Shown piece by piece: positions 26,340-31,434 of a stretch of DNA of 52,010 nt; position 1 is the first letter of the stretch; each line of letters opens with the position of its first letter. Location: NCBI GenBank assembly GCA_014237145.1, contig JAAXOC010000101.1:1-52010 (forward strand). Reading direction: 5' to 3'. The position numbers and the translations under genes are program-made. The notes below the pieces were generated by a model. That model made no database searches. It was given only the letters and a program-made list of their open reading frames with translations, and was not told the DNA's origin. Source of the DNA: ANME-2 cluster archaeon (GTDB lineage: Archaea > Halobacteriota > Methanosarcinia > Methanosarcinales > Methanocomedenaceae).

Positions 26340-26637
26340 GGTGGTTGTAATGGGAATTGATGGTTGAGTTGTGGGTGCCGGGAGTTTGGGGTGATACTCC
26401 TTTTTTGCTGGTCTTTCCTATGGTGTAGACTATGTCCTCTTCCTTCGCCTTGCAATTTTTTGATTTCACCCATTCTCTTCCACCACCTTTTATCTGCTCT
26501 GTCAGCCCATACAAATCATGAACCAGCCTGTCAATCTGGGCGCCAATAATTTTTATCTGCAGTTCATCGAATTCACCGAAAAGTTCGCAAAGCTATTGCT
26601 GCATTGACTTTGCATGCTTTGTGGCATAGTATTTCAT
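26340..26637 (-). pseudogene. Decayed copy of the restriction-enzyme C-terminal-tail ORF
   Basis: From an ATG at 26637 the frame reads MKYYATKHAKSMQQ, then TAG, then LCELFGEFDELQIKIIGAQI followed by DRLVHDLYGLTEQIKG and ~45 further codons. The second part matches the two intact small ORFs at 30330-30572 and 31207-31434 (QI..vd.QIdrLVYDLYgLTeeEI). It is therefore a third, broken member of that family. The natural ending is replaced by unrelated sequence. Confidence 0.6.
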
Positions 26638-27707: not shown

Positions 27708-28511
27708 TCAGGAATCACCTATCTTTTCCAGATATTCGTTTAAATGGTTCTGAATTTTTCGTATATCTTCAGTATCGGGCAGGGTGGTAATGATTTTCTC
27801 AATGATCTGCCTTTGTTGAATATAACGGAATGTCCGGGTAAAATTAATGTCAAATATCCAACCCAGTTGCAGGAGTTTCAAATCATTATATGTTTTCAGG
27901 GCATGGGAATTTGAAACCTGGTTGTTAAGGATATCTTCGACAAAACAAAGTGAATATCCGGATGTGTCAGGAAGTTCAAGTTCTAATGCAGGGTTGCGGT
28001 GCTTATGACGTTGTGCATAATAAGTTGTCACAACCAGCCATACATCCAATTTGTCCGCATCCCGTAATAATTTCGAATACAGTAAACAATCAGGTTTTTC
28101 ATCTGCGGGGTCGGGAAGTTTGAGTACATTGTGATATCCTATGGCTTTATAAGCGATTGAGCGTTGCGTTTTTGTGAGCCGGCTTAATACGTTTGTTTCT
28201 TCTAAAACCTTCAGCCCGAGAGTTGCGTGGTTTTCCGATACCTTATCATTAAAAGTGCCATAGGTTTTGAATTGTTCAAAGCGACCTATGTCGTGAAATA
28301 ATGCAATGGTCTTCGCCAGATGAAGTGCATTTTTATTAAGGTCCAGGGCTTTGCCTAACCCAAGGATCTCCTTACAAACACGTAATGAGTGTTCTTCTTT
28401 AAGTCTGATATTCTCCTGGATTTTTGGATCTTTAGAGTAAAAACCTTTTACGTAATTTCGAAACCATGAATGGAAAAAGGCAGTGTCGATGGTATTCTCT
28501 ATTATGTTTAT
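27708..28511 (-). CDS. HD-domain protein with no standard start codon
   Basis: An uninterrupted frame of ~268 codons runs from just after a TAA at 28524-28526 down to 27708. It contains an HD phosphohydrolase: EEHSLRVCKEILGLG, TIALFHDIGRFEQF (HD pair), VSENHATLGLKVL, AYKAIGYHNVLKL and SKLLRDADKLDVWLV. The protein is complete by family standards, yet no ATG, GTG or TTG occurs until a TTG at 28049, which would drop the HD motif. A GAGGG site at about 28513-28517 is followed by ATA AAC ATA ATA GAG, so the start is probably ATA or a mutated ATG. The substrate is unknown. Confidence 0.72.
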   Translation of the reverse strand: MNIIENTIDTAFFHSWFRNYVKGFYSKDPKIQENIRLKEEHSLRVCKEILGLGKALDLNKNALHLAKTIALFHDIGRFEQFKTYGTFNDKVSENHATLGLKVLEETNVLSRLTKTQRSIAYKAIGYHNVLKLPDPADEKPDCLLYSKLLRDADKLDVWLVVTTYYAQRHKHRNPALELELPDTSGYSLCFVEDILNNQVSNSHALKTYNDLKLLQLGWIFDINFTRTFRYIQQRQIIEKIITTLPDTEDIRKIQNHLNEYLEKIGDS

Positions 28512-28526
28512 CCCTCTTGTTGTTTA

Positions 28527-28643
28527 GCTGTTTTCATTTACACTTCTTGTAGTCATTACCGTCATCAGACGGTGCAGCCGGACCGTGGATGTTACGCGTA
28601 GCCTGGTCATGATAAAGTCTACCTGCCCTGAATTTAGGGCTTA
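28527..28643 (-). pseudogene. PemK/MazF-type toxin, C-terminal fragment
   Basis: A minus-strand frame reads ALNSGQVDFIMTRLRVTSTV followed by RLHRLMTVMTTRSVNENS, then TAA. The LRVTSTVRLHRLMTV segment is the conserved end of MazF/PemK mRNA interferases. It has no start of its own. The matching N-terminal part lies 1.2 kb upstream on the same strand (29842-30033), so both look like halves of one gene split by an insertion. Confidence 0.6.
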
Positions 28644-28700
28644 CTTGAGAATAACCGGTCAAAATCAATTTATAATCTCCCGATAGATATATAAGAGAAT

Positions 28701-28731
28701 TCGAACCGCAGATAAACGCAAATGAACCGCG
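28701..28731. repeat. CAGAT-family repeat, outer left copy
   Basis: CGAACCGCAGATAAACGCAA followed by ATGAACCGCGG is the reverse complement of the type at 29722-29755 (TATCTGCGTTTATCCGCGTT...). Together they bracket the GxxExxY/Cas6-like segment. Confidence 0.65.
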
Positions 28732-28790
28732 GGTGTTGAGTACGAGTTGCATGATTATTATTGTATCTGTTTTTCTGGCTTTTTGGTAAA

Positions 28791-28825
28791 TTAACCACAG
28801 ATAAACACAGATGAACACAGATACG
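28791..28825. repeat. CAGAT-family repeat, inner left copy
   Basis: TTAACCACAGATAAACACAG followed by ATGAACACAGATACG lies 37 bases past the GxxExxY stop. The copy at 29273-29308 has the same orientation and the copy at 29399-29428 the opposite. Confidence 0.7.
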
Positions 28826-28861
28826 GAATTTGCTGTACCTATTGAATCTTACTGATATTTT

Positions 28862-29236
28862 TCAATTCATTATTCTTCTAATTTCTACTTTCGGTTTACT
28901 GAAATTAATAAGCAGGCAGAGTTTAAGTCCGGTAATTTTAAGGTAATTCAAACATTGTGCTAAATGAATGGAATCTAACTCTTTGACGGTTTTTATTTCG
29001 ATGATGATCTTGTCTTCTGCGAGGATATCGGCAAAGTAATCTCCGACCAATTCGCTTTTATAATAGACTTTTAAAGGTGCCTGTTGTTGGGTTTTGATTT
29101 CTCTTTTATTTAGTTCAATATTTAATGCATTCTCATATACTTTCTCAAGAAAACCCGCTCCAAGTACATTACTTACTTCAAAGGCAGCTCCAATAATTTT
29201 CTCGGATAATTTATTTAATTCTTGATTTGCTTCCAT
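28862..29236 (-). CDS. GxxExxY family protein (PD-(D/E)XK nuclease-like)
   Basis: A 124-residue protein of the GxxExxY family, named for the motif seen here as GAGFLEKVYENAL. The second half has the nuclease-like strand order GDYFADILAEDKIIIEIKTV (D...E-x-K) and the ending LKLCLLINF. A nuclease role is inferred from the fold, not proven. Genes of this family often lie beside CAGATNNAC-type repeats, and here copies flank it on both sides (28791-28825 and 29273-29308). The whole unit seems inserted in a mazF gene. Confidence 0.88.
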   Translation of the reverse strand: MEANQELNKLSEKIIGAAFEVSNVLGAGFLEKVYENALNIELNKREIKTQQQAPLKVYYKSELVGDYFADILAEDKIIIEIKTVKELDSIHLAQCLNYLKITGLKLCLLINFSKPKVEIRRIMN

Positions 29237-29272
29237 CTGATATTTGTCTTCTATTGATGATTCTTTTATGAA

Positions 29273-29428
29273 TTAACCATAGGTGAACACAAATAAACAC
29301 AGATGCGAAGAGGGGGAAAACGGATGGTTTTGAATGTAGTGTTTTCTAATTTAATCTCTATACTCTGTGTAGGTCTGATTCACCTGCTTTTCAACAATAT
29401 CTGTGTTCATCTGTGTTTATCTGTGGTT
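29273..29428. repeat. CAGAT-family inverted pair upstream of GxxExxY
   Basis: TTAACCATAGGTGAACACAA and the following ATAAACACAGATGCG (29273-29308) pair with TATCTGTGTTCATCTGTGTT followed by TATCTGTGGTT (29399-29428). They could form a stem with a ~90-base loop that carries a short hydrophobic frame of doubtful meaning. Confidence 0.65.
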
Positions 29429-29710
29429 CTTATTTTCTCCTTGATCTTTACTTTCTCTAATAACAGCCCCGAACCCCCTGGATGCCGATTTCCCCACACC
29501 GAGATAGTCAGGGATGAGGAAATTAACCGAAAAGGTCCCGGTGAATATCATTATATTGGTGTCCTTTTGCCTGCTTTTGTGTATCCTGACATCTGTCTCA
29601 CAGTTTATTCTGTCCGGGACCTGATAGTCCAGTGATTTGGACATTGAGAGTATATTGCCAATGGGGGTTTTGCTCAACAGTTCTTGTTCTTTTTGTGGAA
29701 TGAATGCAGA
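29429..29710 (-). pseudogene. Cas6-like CRISPR endoribonuclease, C-terminal fragment
   Basis: A minus-strand frame reads FIPQKEQELLSKTPIGNILS, continues through YQVPDRINCETDVRIHKSRQ, and reaches GTFSVNFLIPDYLGVGKSAS then RGFGAVI. The 'NF-IPDYlGiGKs-SRGFG' ending matches the Gly-rich C-terminal motif of Cas6/Cas6b endoribonucleases as I remember them. The N-terminal half is absent and both ends run into dispersed repeats. No CRISPR array or other cas gene is present here. The family call is moderate; another RAMP-like protein is possible. Confidence 0.45.
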
Positions 29711-29721
29711 TTTGCGGCATT

Positions 29722-29755
29722 GTATCTGCGTTTATCCGCGTTCATCTGCGGTTAA
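29722..29755. repeat. CAGAT-family repeat, outer right copy
   Basis: TATCTGCGTTTATCCGCGTT followed by CATCTGCGGTTAA is the inverted partner of 28701-28731. It marks the right side of the segment that splits mazF. Confidence 0.65.
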
Positions 29756-29841
29756 ATTTTTATTGATTGTTAACTAGCAAACTGTATTCATATTGCCGTA
29801 TGTGCTGTATATCTTCATAAATCATCTGATAAATTTACCAA

Positions 29842-30033
29842 CTAATTTATTGGCACTCCTTTAGTATTAAGTCTGTTTCCAGTTGATCGATTGACATCCG
29901 GCTGCTGATAAAGGCCATAATAACATGGCGATGTGGACCGACGGGATCTTATCAGGCAGACTGCGGGTCGTACTTTGGTCGTCGAAAGATCATCGAACGG
30001 AAAAGGCACCAGGACGACTTTACCCTTCATCAT
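29842..30033 (-). pseudogene. PemK/MazF-type toxin, frameshifted N-terminal part
   Basis: From the ATG at 30033 the frame reads MMKGKVVLVPFPFDDLSTTK then VRPAVCLI, a clear MazF/PemK start. It then loses similarity because of a one-base shift near 29945. The neighbouring frame continues properly as DPVGPHRHVIMAFISSRMSI then DQLETDLIL before both stop. The C-terminal third is found at 28527-28643. The start overlaps the antitoxin stop by 14 bases, as in MazEF-type pairs. The toxin is doubly broken. Confidence 0.75.
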
Positions 30034-30274
30034 AGAACGGTCTCCCGTCGGAAAGTGTGTAGATATCCTCTTCAGAATCTTTCAGGAAATAGAAGGCTGG
30101 GTTAGCGGCTGCTGCCTGAAGCCATTCAGTTTCATTTATGTCAGAGTCTTCAGGGACCAGGATGATTACACGGACACGAGTCGGTCCGGTGATAGGCAGC
30201 ACCCCATCCAGAACAAGATGGTGCTGGGCGTCAATCATTCCTGTCGTTTCGATAGCTTTTGTTGCGGTTTGCAC
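30020..30274 (-). CDS. Antitoxin of the broken MazF-type pair
   Basis: An 84-residue acidic protein: a small beta-rich N-terminus (MIDAQHHLVLDGVLPITGPT, VRVIILVPED) that may bind DNA, then INETEWLQAAAANPAF and a DE-rich end (FLKDSEEDIYTLSDGRPFYD). This is the standard partner found before archaeal and cyanobacterial MazF-like toxins. It is intact while its toxin is frameshifted and split, so it is an orphan or serves other toxins. Confidence 0.78.
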   Translation of the reverse strand: MQTATKAIETTGMIDAQHHLVLDGVLPITGPTRVRVIILVPEDSDINETEWLQAAAANPAFYFLKDSEEDIYTLSDGRPFYDEG

Positions 30275-30329
30275 TTTGTTTTTTCTCCTATTTTATGCAT
30301 ATTGATCTAATCTTTCCGGCATTGGCGTT

Positions 30330-30692: not shown

Positions 30693-31214
30693 TCACCTCC
30701 ATATTATATTTTTTATTATTAAGATTATAAATATGAGATTAGCCACAATAAACGTGTATAGAGCGACAGTAAAACGCCATATCCGTTTTTCATGTTTATC
30801 GACATTGTATCTATATGCTTCTTTAAGATAATATAAAAAATGTGAGTGAAGTTCTTTTTCAGAGTTGGATATTAACATACCAAATGTGTTTTTCTCAAAC
30901 ACATTTAAATCCTTATAATCGGTTGGATGAAAAATTGAGATGTTTATGACCAATGAAATGACTAAAAGAAGAATGAAAGCGATTAATAAGAAGATATCTA
31001 CAATCGAAGGTTGTCACCCTTTTTGAAGCAGATATAGTACAAGTGTTAAAACAATCGAAAGAATGGGTAAAATAATGCCAATAAATGCTATGTTTCGACT
31101 ATTAAAATTTAAAATATTTTGCTGCATCCTTCCAAAAACTTCAGTTCCACGATCAATAAGTAATTTATATCGTTTTCTTTCTTCTTCTCCTGGCAATTTT
31201 TTCATCTCATCCAC
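30693..31214 (-). pseudogene. Three-helix membrane protein interrupted by an in-frame TGA
   Basis: From ATG 31214 the frame gives MDEMKKLPGEEERKRYKLLI, then FGRMQQNILNFNSRNIAFIG and a membrane helix ending LVLYLLQKG, then TGA (31014-31016). The same frame continues QPSIVDIFLLIAFILLLVIS (second helix), a soluble part (NTFGMLISNSEKELHSHFLY) and a third helix (FTVALYTFIVANLIFIILII) to 30693. One TGG-to-TGA change explains the break; the two parts could also be made separately. Layout, with an N-terminal coil and three helices, resembles small membrane effectors in defence islands, but that is inference. Confidence 0.65.
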
Positions 31215-31434
31215 TTTCTTCCACCACCTTTATCTCTTCCTCCGTCAGCTCATACAAATCATAAACCAGCCTGTCAATCTGTTCATCAACAATATTTATC
31301 TGCCGCTCGTAAAGCTCCTTATCTCGCTCCATTCTCACCTCGTGGTATTTCTTCTGGAGTTCGAGCATATCATCTACCAGAGAAACAAGTTTATCATGCT
31401 TTGCTTCTTCTTTCATTTCATCTTTGGACATCAT
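31207..31434 (-). CDS. Small ORF resembling restriction-methylase C-terminal tail, copy B
   Basis: Seventy-five residues: MMSKDEMKEEAKHDKLVSLV then DDMLELQKKYHEVRMERD, YERQINIVDEQIDRLVYDLY and ELTEEEIKVVEESG. It is about two-thirds identical to copy A. Its end overlaps the start of the membrane-protein gene by eight bases, so the order is copy B, membrane protein, 39-codon ORF, copy A. This repeated coupling to a membrane protein argues for a partner role. Confidence 0.75.
   Translation of the reverse strand: MMSKDEMKEEAKHDKLVSLVDDMLELQKKYHEVRMERDKELYERQINIVDEQIDRLVYDLYELTEEEIKVVEESG

Follow-up and report, generated by a model that had tools for sequence, protein, structure and literature searches.

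Homing genes are located within introns or inteins or between conserved genes, and they cleave alleles that lack them. The layout nearest to the one described below is that of the REPtron, which consists of a RAYT gene and its flanking REP palindromes (PMC3733652). The RAYT protein, a HUH tyrosine transposase, belongs to the IS200/IS605 group, and REPs bear a GTAG tag (PMC3733652). As for GxxExxY proteins, the open-access literature knows them by name only, one mention being merely an annotation beside a CRISPR-associated gene. We found no relevant match when the repeat sequences described here were searched in open-access papers, and open-access work on multicopy sequences in Geobacter refers to families of palindromes without naming a nuclease.

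The window analyzed here, 52,010 nucleotides long, is contig C101 of an archaeal genome of 2.97 Mb (G000), whose relatives are methanotrophic Methanosarcinales (ANME-2, Methanoperedens). It contains a mazF-type toxin gene in two parts, separated by a GxxExxY gene and several repeats. We consider it probable that a MITE-like element entered mazF and that a GxxExxY segment was later acquired by the core of this element; GxxExxY genes would form units with repeats of their own, which the nuclease cuts and which repair then copies.

The split mazF gene and its MITE-like insert

Uninterrupted alleles of the toxin gene were sought and four were found: a copy on contig C3 of the same genome (L120) and those of G011 (L121), G028 (L122) and G024 (L366). 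The two toxin halves, which were aligned apart throughout and never joined, correspond to adjacent stretches of one gene that do not overlap except for 5 bp (TTTAG); the gene is thus truly split, as an earlier note on this DNA had claimed. At C3, the counterparts of window positions 29860-30280 (93%) and 28552-28637 (81%) adjoin each other and share 5 bp, the parts abut in the same manner in G011 and G028, and they are likewise contiguous in G024. The uninterrupted alleles of G028 and G024 have the same HD gene as neighbor that mazF has in the window, and they therefore represent orthologous insert-free sites (in G024, this gene and the mazF junction are on two contigs overlapping in the mazF C part). 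Since TTTAG is present at both borders in the window and the alleles overlap by the same 5 bp, the insert spans 28638-29859 and measures 1222 bp (Table 1). An assembly chimera was considered and dropped, as the same MITE occupies the same site in G010 and uninterrupted alleles exist at four loci.

Table 1. Features of the mazF locus and its insert (positions in the window)
Feature	Position	Strand	Remarks
mazF/PemK-type toxin, C-terminal remnant	28515-28637	-	ends early at ..VNENS*; aligned to uninterrupted alleles L120, L121, L122, L366
TTTAG, target-site duplication (5 bp), left copy	28633-28637		5-bp overlap at junction, four uninterrupted alleles
MITE left end (GGCTTACTTGAGAATAACC...)	28638-28703	+	same sharp edge in G000, G003, G005, G007, G010, G015
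MITE CAGAT palindromic core, left half (outer repeat of the earlier note)	28704-28727	+	contiguous with right half in compact L098 and in L096
Inner segment inside MITE core, between AAATGAAC and GCAGATTT	28728-29705		core uninterrupted here in G010 and compact MITEs
GxxExxY-bracketing inverted repeat, left arm (AACCACAGAT AAACACAGAT GAACACAGAT A)	28793-28823	+	perfect 31-nt inverted pair
GxxExxY (PDDEXK_3 / TIGR04256) nuclease gene, intact, 124 aa	28862-29236	-	D70, E80, K82, Q94, Y98 conserved
Further CAGAT repeat, decayed direct copy	29275-29304	+	equivalent palindrome arm beside cas6b in G004
GxxExxY inverted repeat, right arm	29398-29428	-	provides last codons NHR* of cas6b fragment
cas6b 3' fragment, C-terminal ~70 aa	29417-29677	-	Pfam Cas6b_C E=1.7e-23; 91% match to end of longer G004 cas6b frame
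MITE CAGAT palindromic core, right half (outer repeat of the earlier note)	29706-29753	-	contiguous with left half in compact L098 and in L096
MITE right end (..GGCA[GC]TCC)	29754-29859	+	same edge in G000, G001, G002, G003, G005, G007, G010, G015
TTTAG, target-site duplication (5 bp), right copy	29860-29864		same 5-bp junction overlap
mazF N-terminal part	29860-30033	-	frameshift after RPAVCL
Antitoxin gene, intact, 84 aa	30020-30274	-	RelN-like, under curated cut-off; 94% DNA match at C3

Both toxin parts described in the earlier note are present, with boundaries that need adjustment. The N part is present where it was placed (29842-30033), but its homologous stretch is 29860-30033, as 29842-29859 belongs to the insert, and the C part, placed at 28527-28643, retains mazF homology only up to 28637. 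The antitoxin behind which the toxin had been placed is indeed an intact ORF; it matches NF050107 with E=6.6e-11 and 42.7 bits, the cut-off being 70. A Pfam scan of the toxin halves gave no match, and the mazF/PemK name rests on sequence likeness. The window toxin is split, frameshifted and shortened, its C part stopping early relative to the intact C3 copy; a PemK/MazF pair has an intact toxin frame beside the antitoxin, and such a frame is found at C3. The HD gene (27708-28514) is apparently frameshifted in the window, which seems to reflect either real decay or an assembly error, and has an intact frame of ~271 aa in G002 and G008. We also observed a sequence of ~120 bp with two copies in the window, at 26438-26560 and at about 31180-31303, which are 83% identical; relatives contain this sequence too.

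Judging from its copies, the splitter of mazF is a MITE-like, transposase-less small element with the target CTWAG and a 5-bp duplication. Border sequences with the same edges recur in the own genome and in seven related genomes, and the copies examined (16 left ends and 13 right ends) combine these edges with unrelated flanks and carry no transposase. Compact copies (L098 of about 243 bp, L099, L100) consist of the left end, the CAGAT palindrome core and the right end, without GxxExxY, and GxxExxY-less copies found elsewhere range over ~245-430 bp. The flanking bases are CTWAG-like; the duplication is exact in the window (TTTAG) and in L100 (CTAAG), agrees at 4/5 bp in L099 and is not identical in L098. 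The termini GG-CTTACTTGAGAATAACC and GGACTGCCAAGAAATAAGTT show only weak similarity when compared by eye.

The reading that mazF was entered directly by a GxxExxY unit bounded by repeats, put forward in the earlier note, draws on the position of GxxExxY and the inverted repeats between the toxin halves. We find it scarcely credible, since the junctions and the target-site duplication are 66 bp (left) and ~106 bp (right) outside the CAGAT repeats, at MITE ends seen elsewhere without GxxExxY, and the same MITE is present in mazF of G010 with its core uninterrupted. What entered the toxin gene is thus the MITE-like element.

The cores of this element hold different sequences in relatives. Those of L097 (2820-4490), L100 (1196-1307) and L099 (2669-2891) nest a CACTCACCTCCTACGGAGTTGAGTG-type palindrome, a ACACGGAT palindrome and an RHH/PIN-like gene pair of G010, the last of which sits between two MITE core copies. 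A second MITE family, present in the own genome and in G004 (L031-L035, L024, L025, L027, L172), has the CAGAT palindrome mid-element, ends (GAGACCGTTACA.../...GGTCTC) that are unrelated to those of the mazF MITE, and 8-bp duplications, e.g., GATATATC and GGCTTAAA.

The GxxExxY/cas6b segment and the order of events

The GxxExxY gene, the Cas6 fragment and the CAGAT repeats described between the toxin halves are all present. The outer repeats do form an inverted pair, but their edges shift from 28701-28731 and 29722-29755 to 28704-28727 and 29723-29753. These outer repeats are the MITE's own core, and it is the inner, perfect 31-nt pair (28793-28823 and 29398-29428) that brackets GxxExxY. The own genome contains 67 matches of the CAGAT repeat and 0 of a reversed control pattern, so the repeat is not a chance occurrence.

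The order of events is indicated by G010, which belongs to another genus of the same family. In this genome, the mazF C part comes after the HD gene and gives way to the MITE left end exactly where it does in the window, to the base, and the MITE core runs uninterrupted through the point at which the window possesses an extra 978 bp. Because the core at the same mazF site is uninterrupted, the MITE came first and the GxxExxY segment later; both the nesting and the sequence of the two events are thus shown. In G004, this cas6b end adjoins a CAGAT palindrome as well, with no GxxExxY gene between or beside them. The right edge of the inner segment is inside cas6b and not in a repeat, and its entry was therefore not a clean repeat-to-repeat insertion of a unit. 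A Cas6-linked function was considered and dropped, the cas6b fragment being a 3' remnant that ends in the repeat, and an Rfam scan of the window detected no RNA family.

We propose that the MITE-like element (CTWAG target, 5-bp duplication) entered mazF prior to the split of the two genera represented by G000 and G010, or that it spread from one genus to the other. In the G000 lineage, a segment made up of the GxxExxY gene, the perfect 31-nt inverted pair of CAGAT repeats around it and the neighboring cas6b 3' end would then have been inserted into the CAGAT palindromic core of the MITE. The locus provides an example of ordered nesting, i.e., a MITE in a toxin gene and then a GxxExxY segment in the MITE.

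The inclusion of a cas6b fragment in the inserted segment is also what could be expected if GxxExxY were a passenger, with fragile CAGAT-type hairpins breaking, host repair adding filler DNA that includes GxxExxY, and the protein having an unrelated repair or defence role. The same explanation can draw on the MITE cores that hold other palindromes and foreign DNA (L097, L099, L100) and on the CAGAT palindromes situated mid-element in two unrelated MITE families. It has to be weighed, alongside our preferred reading of GxxExxY and its repeats as a unit, against the GxxExxY loci of other genomes.

GxxExxY proteins, their repeats and the mobility of the units

The GxxExxY protein of the window (motif GFLEKVY) matches Pfam PDDEXK_3 with E=1e-41 (142 bits, cut-off 22) and TIGR04256 of NCBIfam with E=6e-43 (146 bits, cut-off 35). 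The alignment shows no variation at residues D70, E80, K82, Q94 and Y98, and D, ExK and QxxxY are placed on an RE-type core, as is characteristic for PD-(D/E)XK nucleases. Its AF2 predicted fold has a pLDDT of 96 and finds SSO0001 (4ic1) as the best Foldseek match in the PDB (E 1.2e-4, TM 0.58), followed by nucleases of the lambda-exonuclease type, while a PDB search by sequence gave nothing convincing. Changes fall mostly at third codon positions, including those between the window gene and its relatives, and the protein is therefore maintained (purifying selection). On its modeled structure, it is a conserved PD-(D/E)XK nuclease with a Cas4/RecB fold.

A scan of one genome per species yielded 501 GxxExxY relatives, of which the best 80 were fetched, and bracketing was scored by comparing, in inverted orientation, the 300 bp on either side of the gene. 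A score of at least 16 was reached by 48 of 69 loci, compared with 2 of 1725 control placements taken from the same contigs. After addition of archaeal loci and removal of near-identical proteins, a score of at least 14 was reached by 77 of the 101 non-redundant loci vs. 17 of 1880 control placements, the latter excluding arm-containing stretches, which somewhat lowers the control score. The comparison of many loci suggested in the earlier note thus bore out that GxxExxY genes are bracketed by inverted repeats. Bracketed loci (~76%) span archaea and many bacterial phyla and come from isolates as well as metagenome bins (e.g., L211, L255, L263), a few bins being probably misnamed or mis-binned (L198, L202, L249, L261); about a quarter of the loci have no clear inverted pair. 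As these loci were collected through similarity to a single subfamily, plus archaeal relatives, the family as a whole may show other rates. Searches returned 1 GxxExxY locus among viral contigs and 8 plasmid records, which argues that phages and plasmids are not the main carriers.

Arms are typically composed of three units of ~10 nt, and the whole GxxExxY unit generally measures ~450-650 bp, with the nuclease gene between inverted arrays of these ~10-nt subfamily-specific units. One arm often overlaps or nears the start codon, and many GxxExxY genes open with the repeat as a coding stretch (L003:1423-1854, L157, L155, L136-L138, L145); the N-terminus encoded in this way is MEPQINADERRLN for CAGAT, and PQRTQRTQR or TENTESTEN for CAGAG-type repeats.

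We found that GxxExxY subfamilies differ in their arms, which include CAGAT, CAGAG, CAAAG, ACAGGAT, CGAAT and other classes. Protein identity is correlated with repeat similarity (Mantel r=0.50, reached by 0 of 2000 permutations), and repeat similarity follows the subfamily, being 0.28 (n=12) for different subfamilies of the same genome vs. 0.69 (n=119) for the same subfamily in different genomes. Among 31 genomes, repeat counts per genome are higher with the cognate gene, both for CAGAT (28 vs. 8, p=7e-4) and for CAGAG (39 vs. 12, p=1.6e-3), and repeats are also present without a GxxExxY match in G005, G054 and G071. These comparisons show a repeat-protein matching that holds even within one genome, and genome composition cannot explain it. 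The matching is shaped by common descent and is no proof of recognition; part of it could reflect joint inheritance of one DNA segment. It would also be accounted for if the repeats were operators or terminators for autoregulation by GxxExxY as a DNA-binding protein, and the arm at or near the start codon, which can encode the N-terminus, would agree with such a role. Yet, a regulatory function appears very improbable to us, as it leaves unexplained the second arm, the many gene-less palindromes and the occupied and empty sites described below.

Returning to GxxExxY units as mobile DNA, empty sites were sought and found for two of them. G002 and G005 (same genus; flank 93-95% identical) lack the CAGAG unit of own-genome contig C84 at the homologous site, as do G008, G009 and G010. 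In G006, a unit is situated between hsdM and hsdS that G007 lacks, and the direct-repeat copies flanking it correspond to the hsdM/hsdS junction, which is single at the empty site. Direct repeats of ~48-140 bp flank several GxxExxY units (L147, L151, L157, L252, L271) and may be target duplications. Around the Methanoperedens unit L158, no clean empty sites were detected, only syntenic or decayed units. For related units at unrelated sites, alignments end 0-40 bp past the repeats in the clearest pairs: 0 and 12 bp (L395/L398), 0 and 20 bp (L149/L387, both in G012), 40 and 0 bp (L001/L140), and 0 and 3 bp (L214/L233). Other pairs share longer flanks, through synteny or as larger units, and in the syntenic pairs L384/L389, L161/L390 and L249/L261 the units stay put and decay. 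Homologous-site comparisons thus show occupied and empty sites, and alignments across unrelated sites show unit edges at or near the repeats.

That GxxExxY is a passenger seems unlikely in view of these loci, as this would not account for the agreement of repeat class with protein subfamily, both in single genomes and across genomes, for the bracketing of ~76% of the loci in many phyla, or for the position of unit edges at the repeats. The proposal that GxxExxY and its repeats form a mobile unit, initially drawn from the mazF locus, gains its support from the bracketing, the repeat-protein matching, the unit edges and the occupied and empty sites at independent loci elsewhere, the part of the protein in this movement being presumed. 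Points that speak against it are the genomes with repeats and no GxxExxY match, the loci lacking a clear inverted pair, the syntenic units that do not move, the share that joint inheritance could have in the matching, and the right edge of the mazF segment in cas6b. As the nuclease and its own repeats recur across archaea and many bacterial phyla and at new places, they look like an undescribed kind of mobile unit. We envisage that the nuclease recognizes its own repeat, probably when this is extruded as a hairpin, and introduces a nick or a cut into it; that repair of the break copies the repeat-bounded unit, or a gene-less palindrome, to other places; and that existing cognate palindromes would be the preferred landing sites. 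We infer repeat binding and cutting by GxxExxY, its driving of the movement and the repair route from the arrangement of genes and repeats. It is possible, and we suggest it tentatively, that GxxExxY with subfamily-specific inverted repeats constitutes a new type of self-mobilizing element in archaea and bacteria, in which a Cas4/RecB-like nuclease cuts its own hairpin repeats and copies the unit or a gene-less palindrome elsewhere, sometimes with target duplications of ~50-140 bp.

Comparison with known systems

The mazF element resembles MITEs in its short gene-less copies, its sharp ends, which look weakly similar by eye, its 5-bp CTWAG duplication and its multiple copies across the genome family. 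It differs in that its core is formed by a CAGAT palindrome and in that the window copy alone contains a GxxExxY/cas6b segment; a by-eye look at a few flanks revealed no transposase for the element. The GxxExxY protein shares the fold and the motif order D, ExK, QxxxY with Cas4/RecB-type and lambda-exonuclease nucleases (4ic1, 3slp), but is a minimal domain of 124 aa without a CRISPR or helicase partner. Like homing endonuclease genes, including those of PD-(D/E)XK types, GxxExxY is a small nuclease gene present at some sites and absent at homologous ones; we know of no homing genes that are bracketed by their own dispersed inverted repeats.

The REPtron is similar in that a small gene is positioned between palindromic repeats that are also solitary in many genomic copies, in the matching of repeat and protein, and in the proposed mobilization of repeats (PMC3733652). 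Gene-flanking, genome-dispersed palindromic repeats are thus found with GxxExxY as well, whereas in place of a HUH tyrosine transposase both Pfam and the fold point to a PD-(D/E)XK nuclease only, and the repeat is an array of ~10-nt units. The GxxExxY family is widespread, and if each subfamily recognizes its own repeat, the family gains a testable substrate. In that case, a class of dispersed palindromes would also be explained as traces of nuclease-linked elements, and GxxExxY with its repeats would represent a PD-(D/E)XK counterpart to the REP/RAYT pair.
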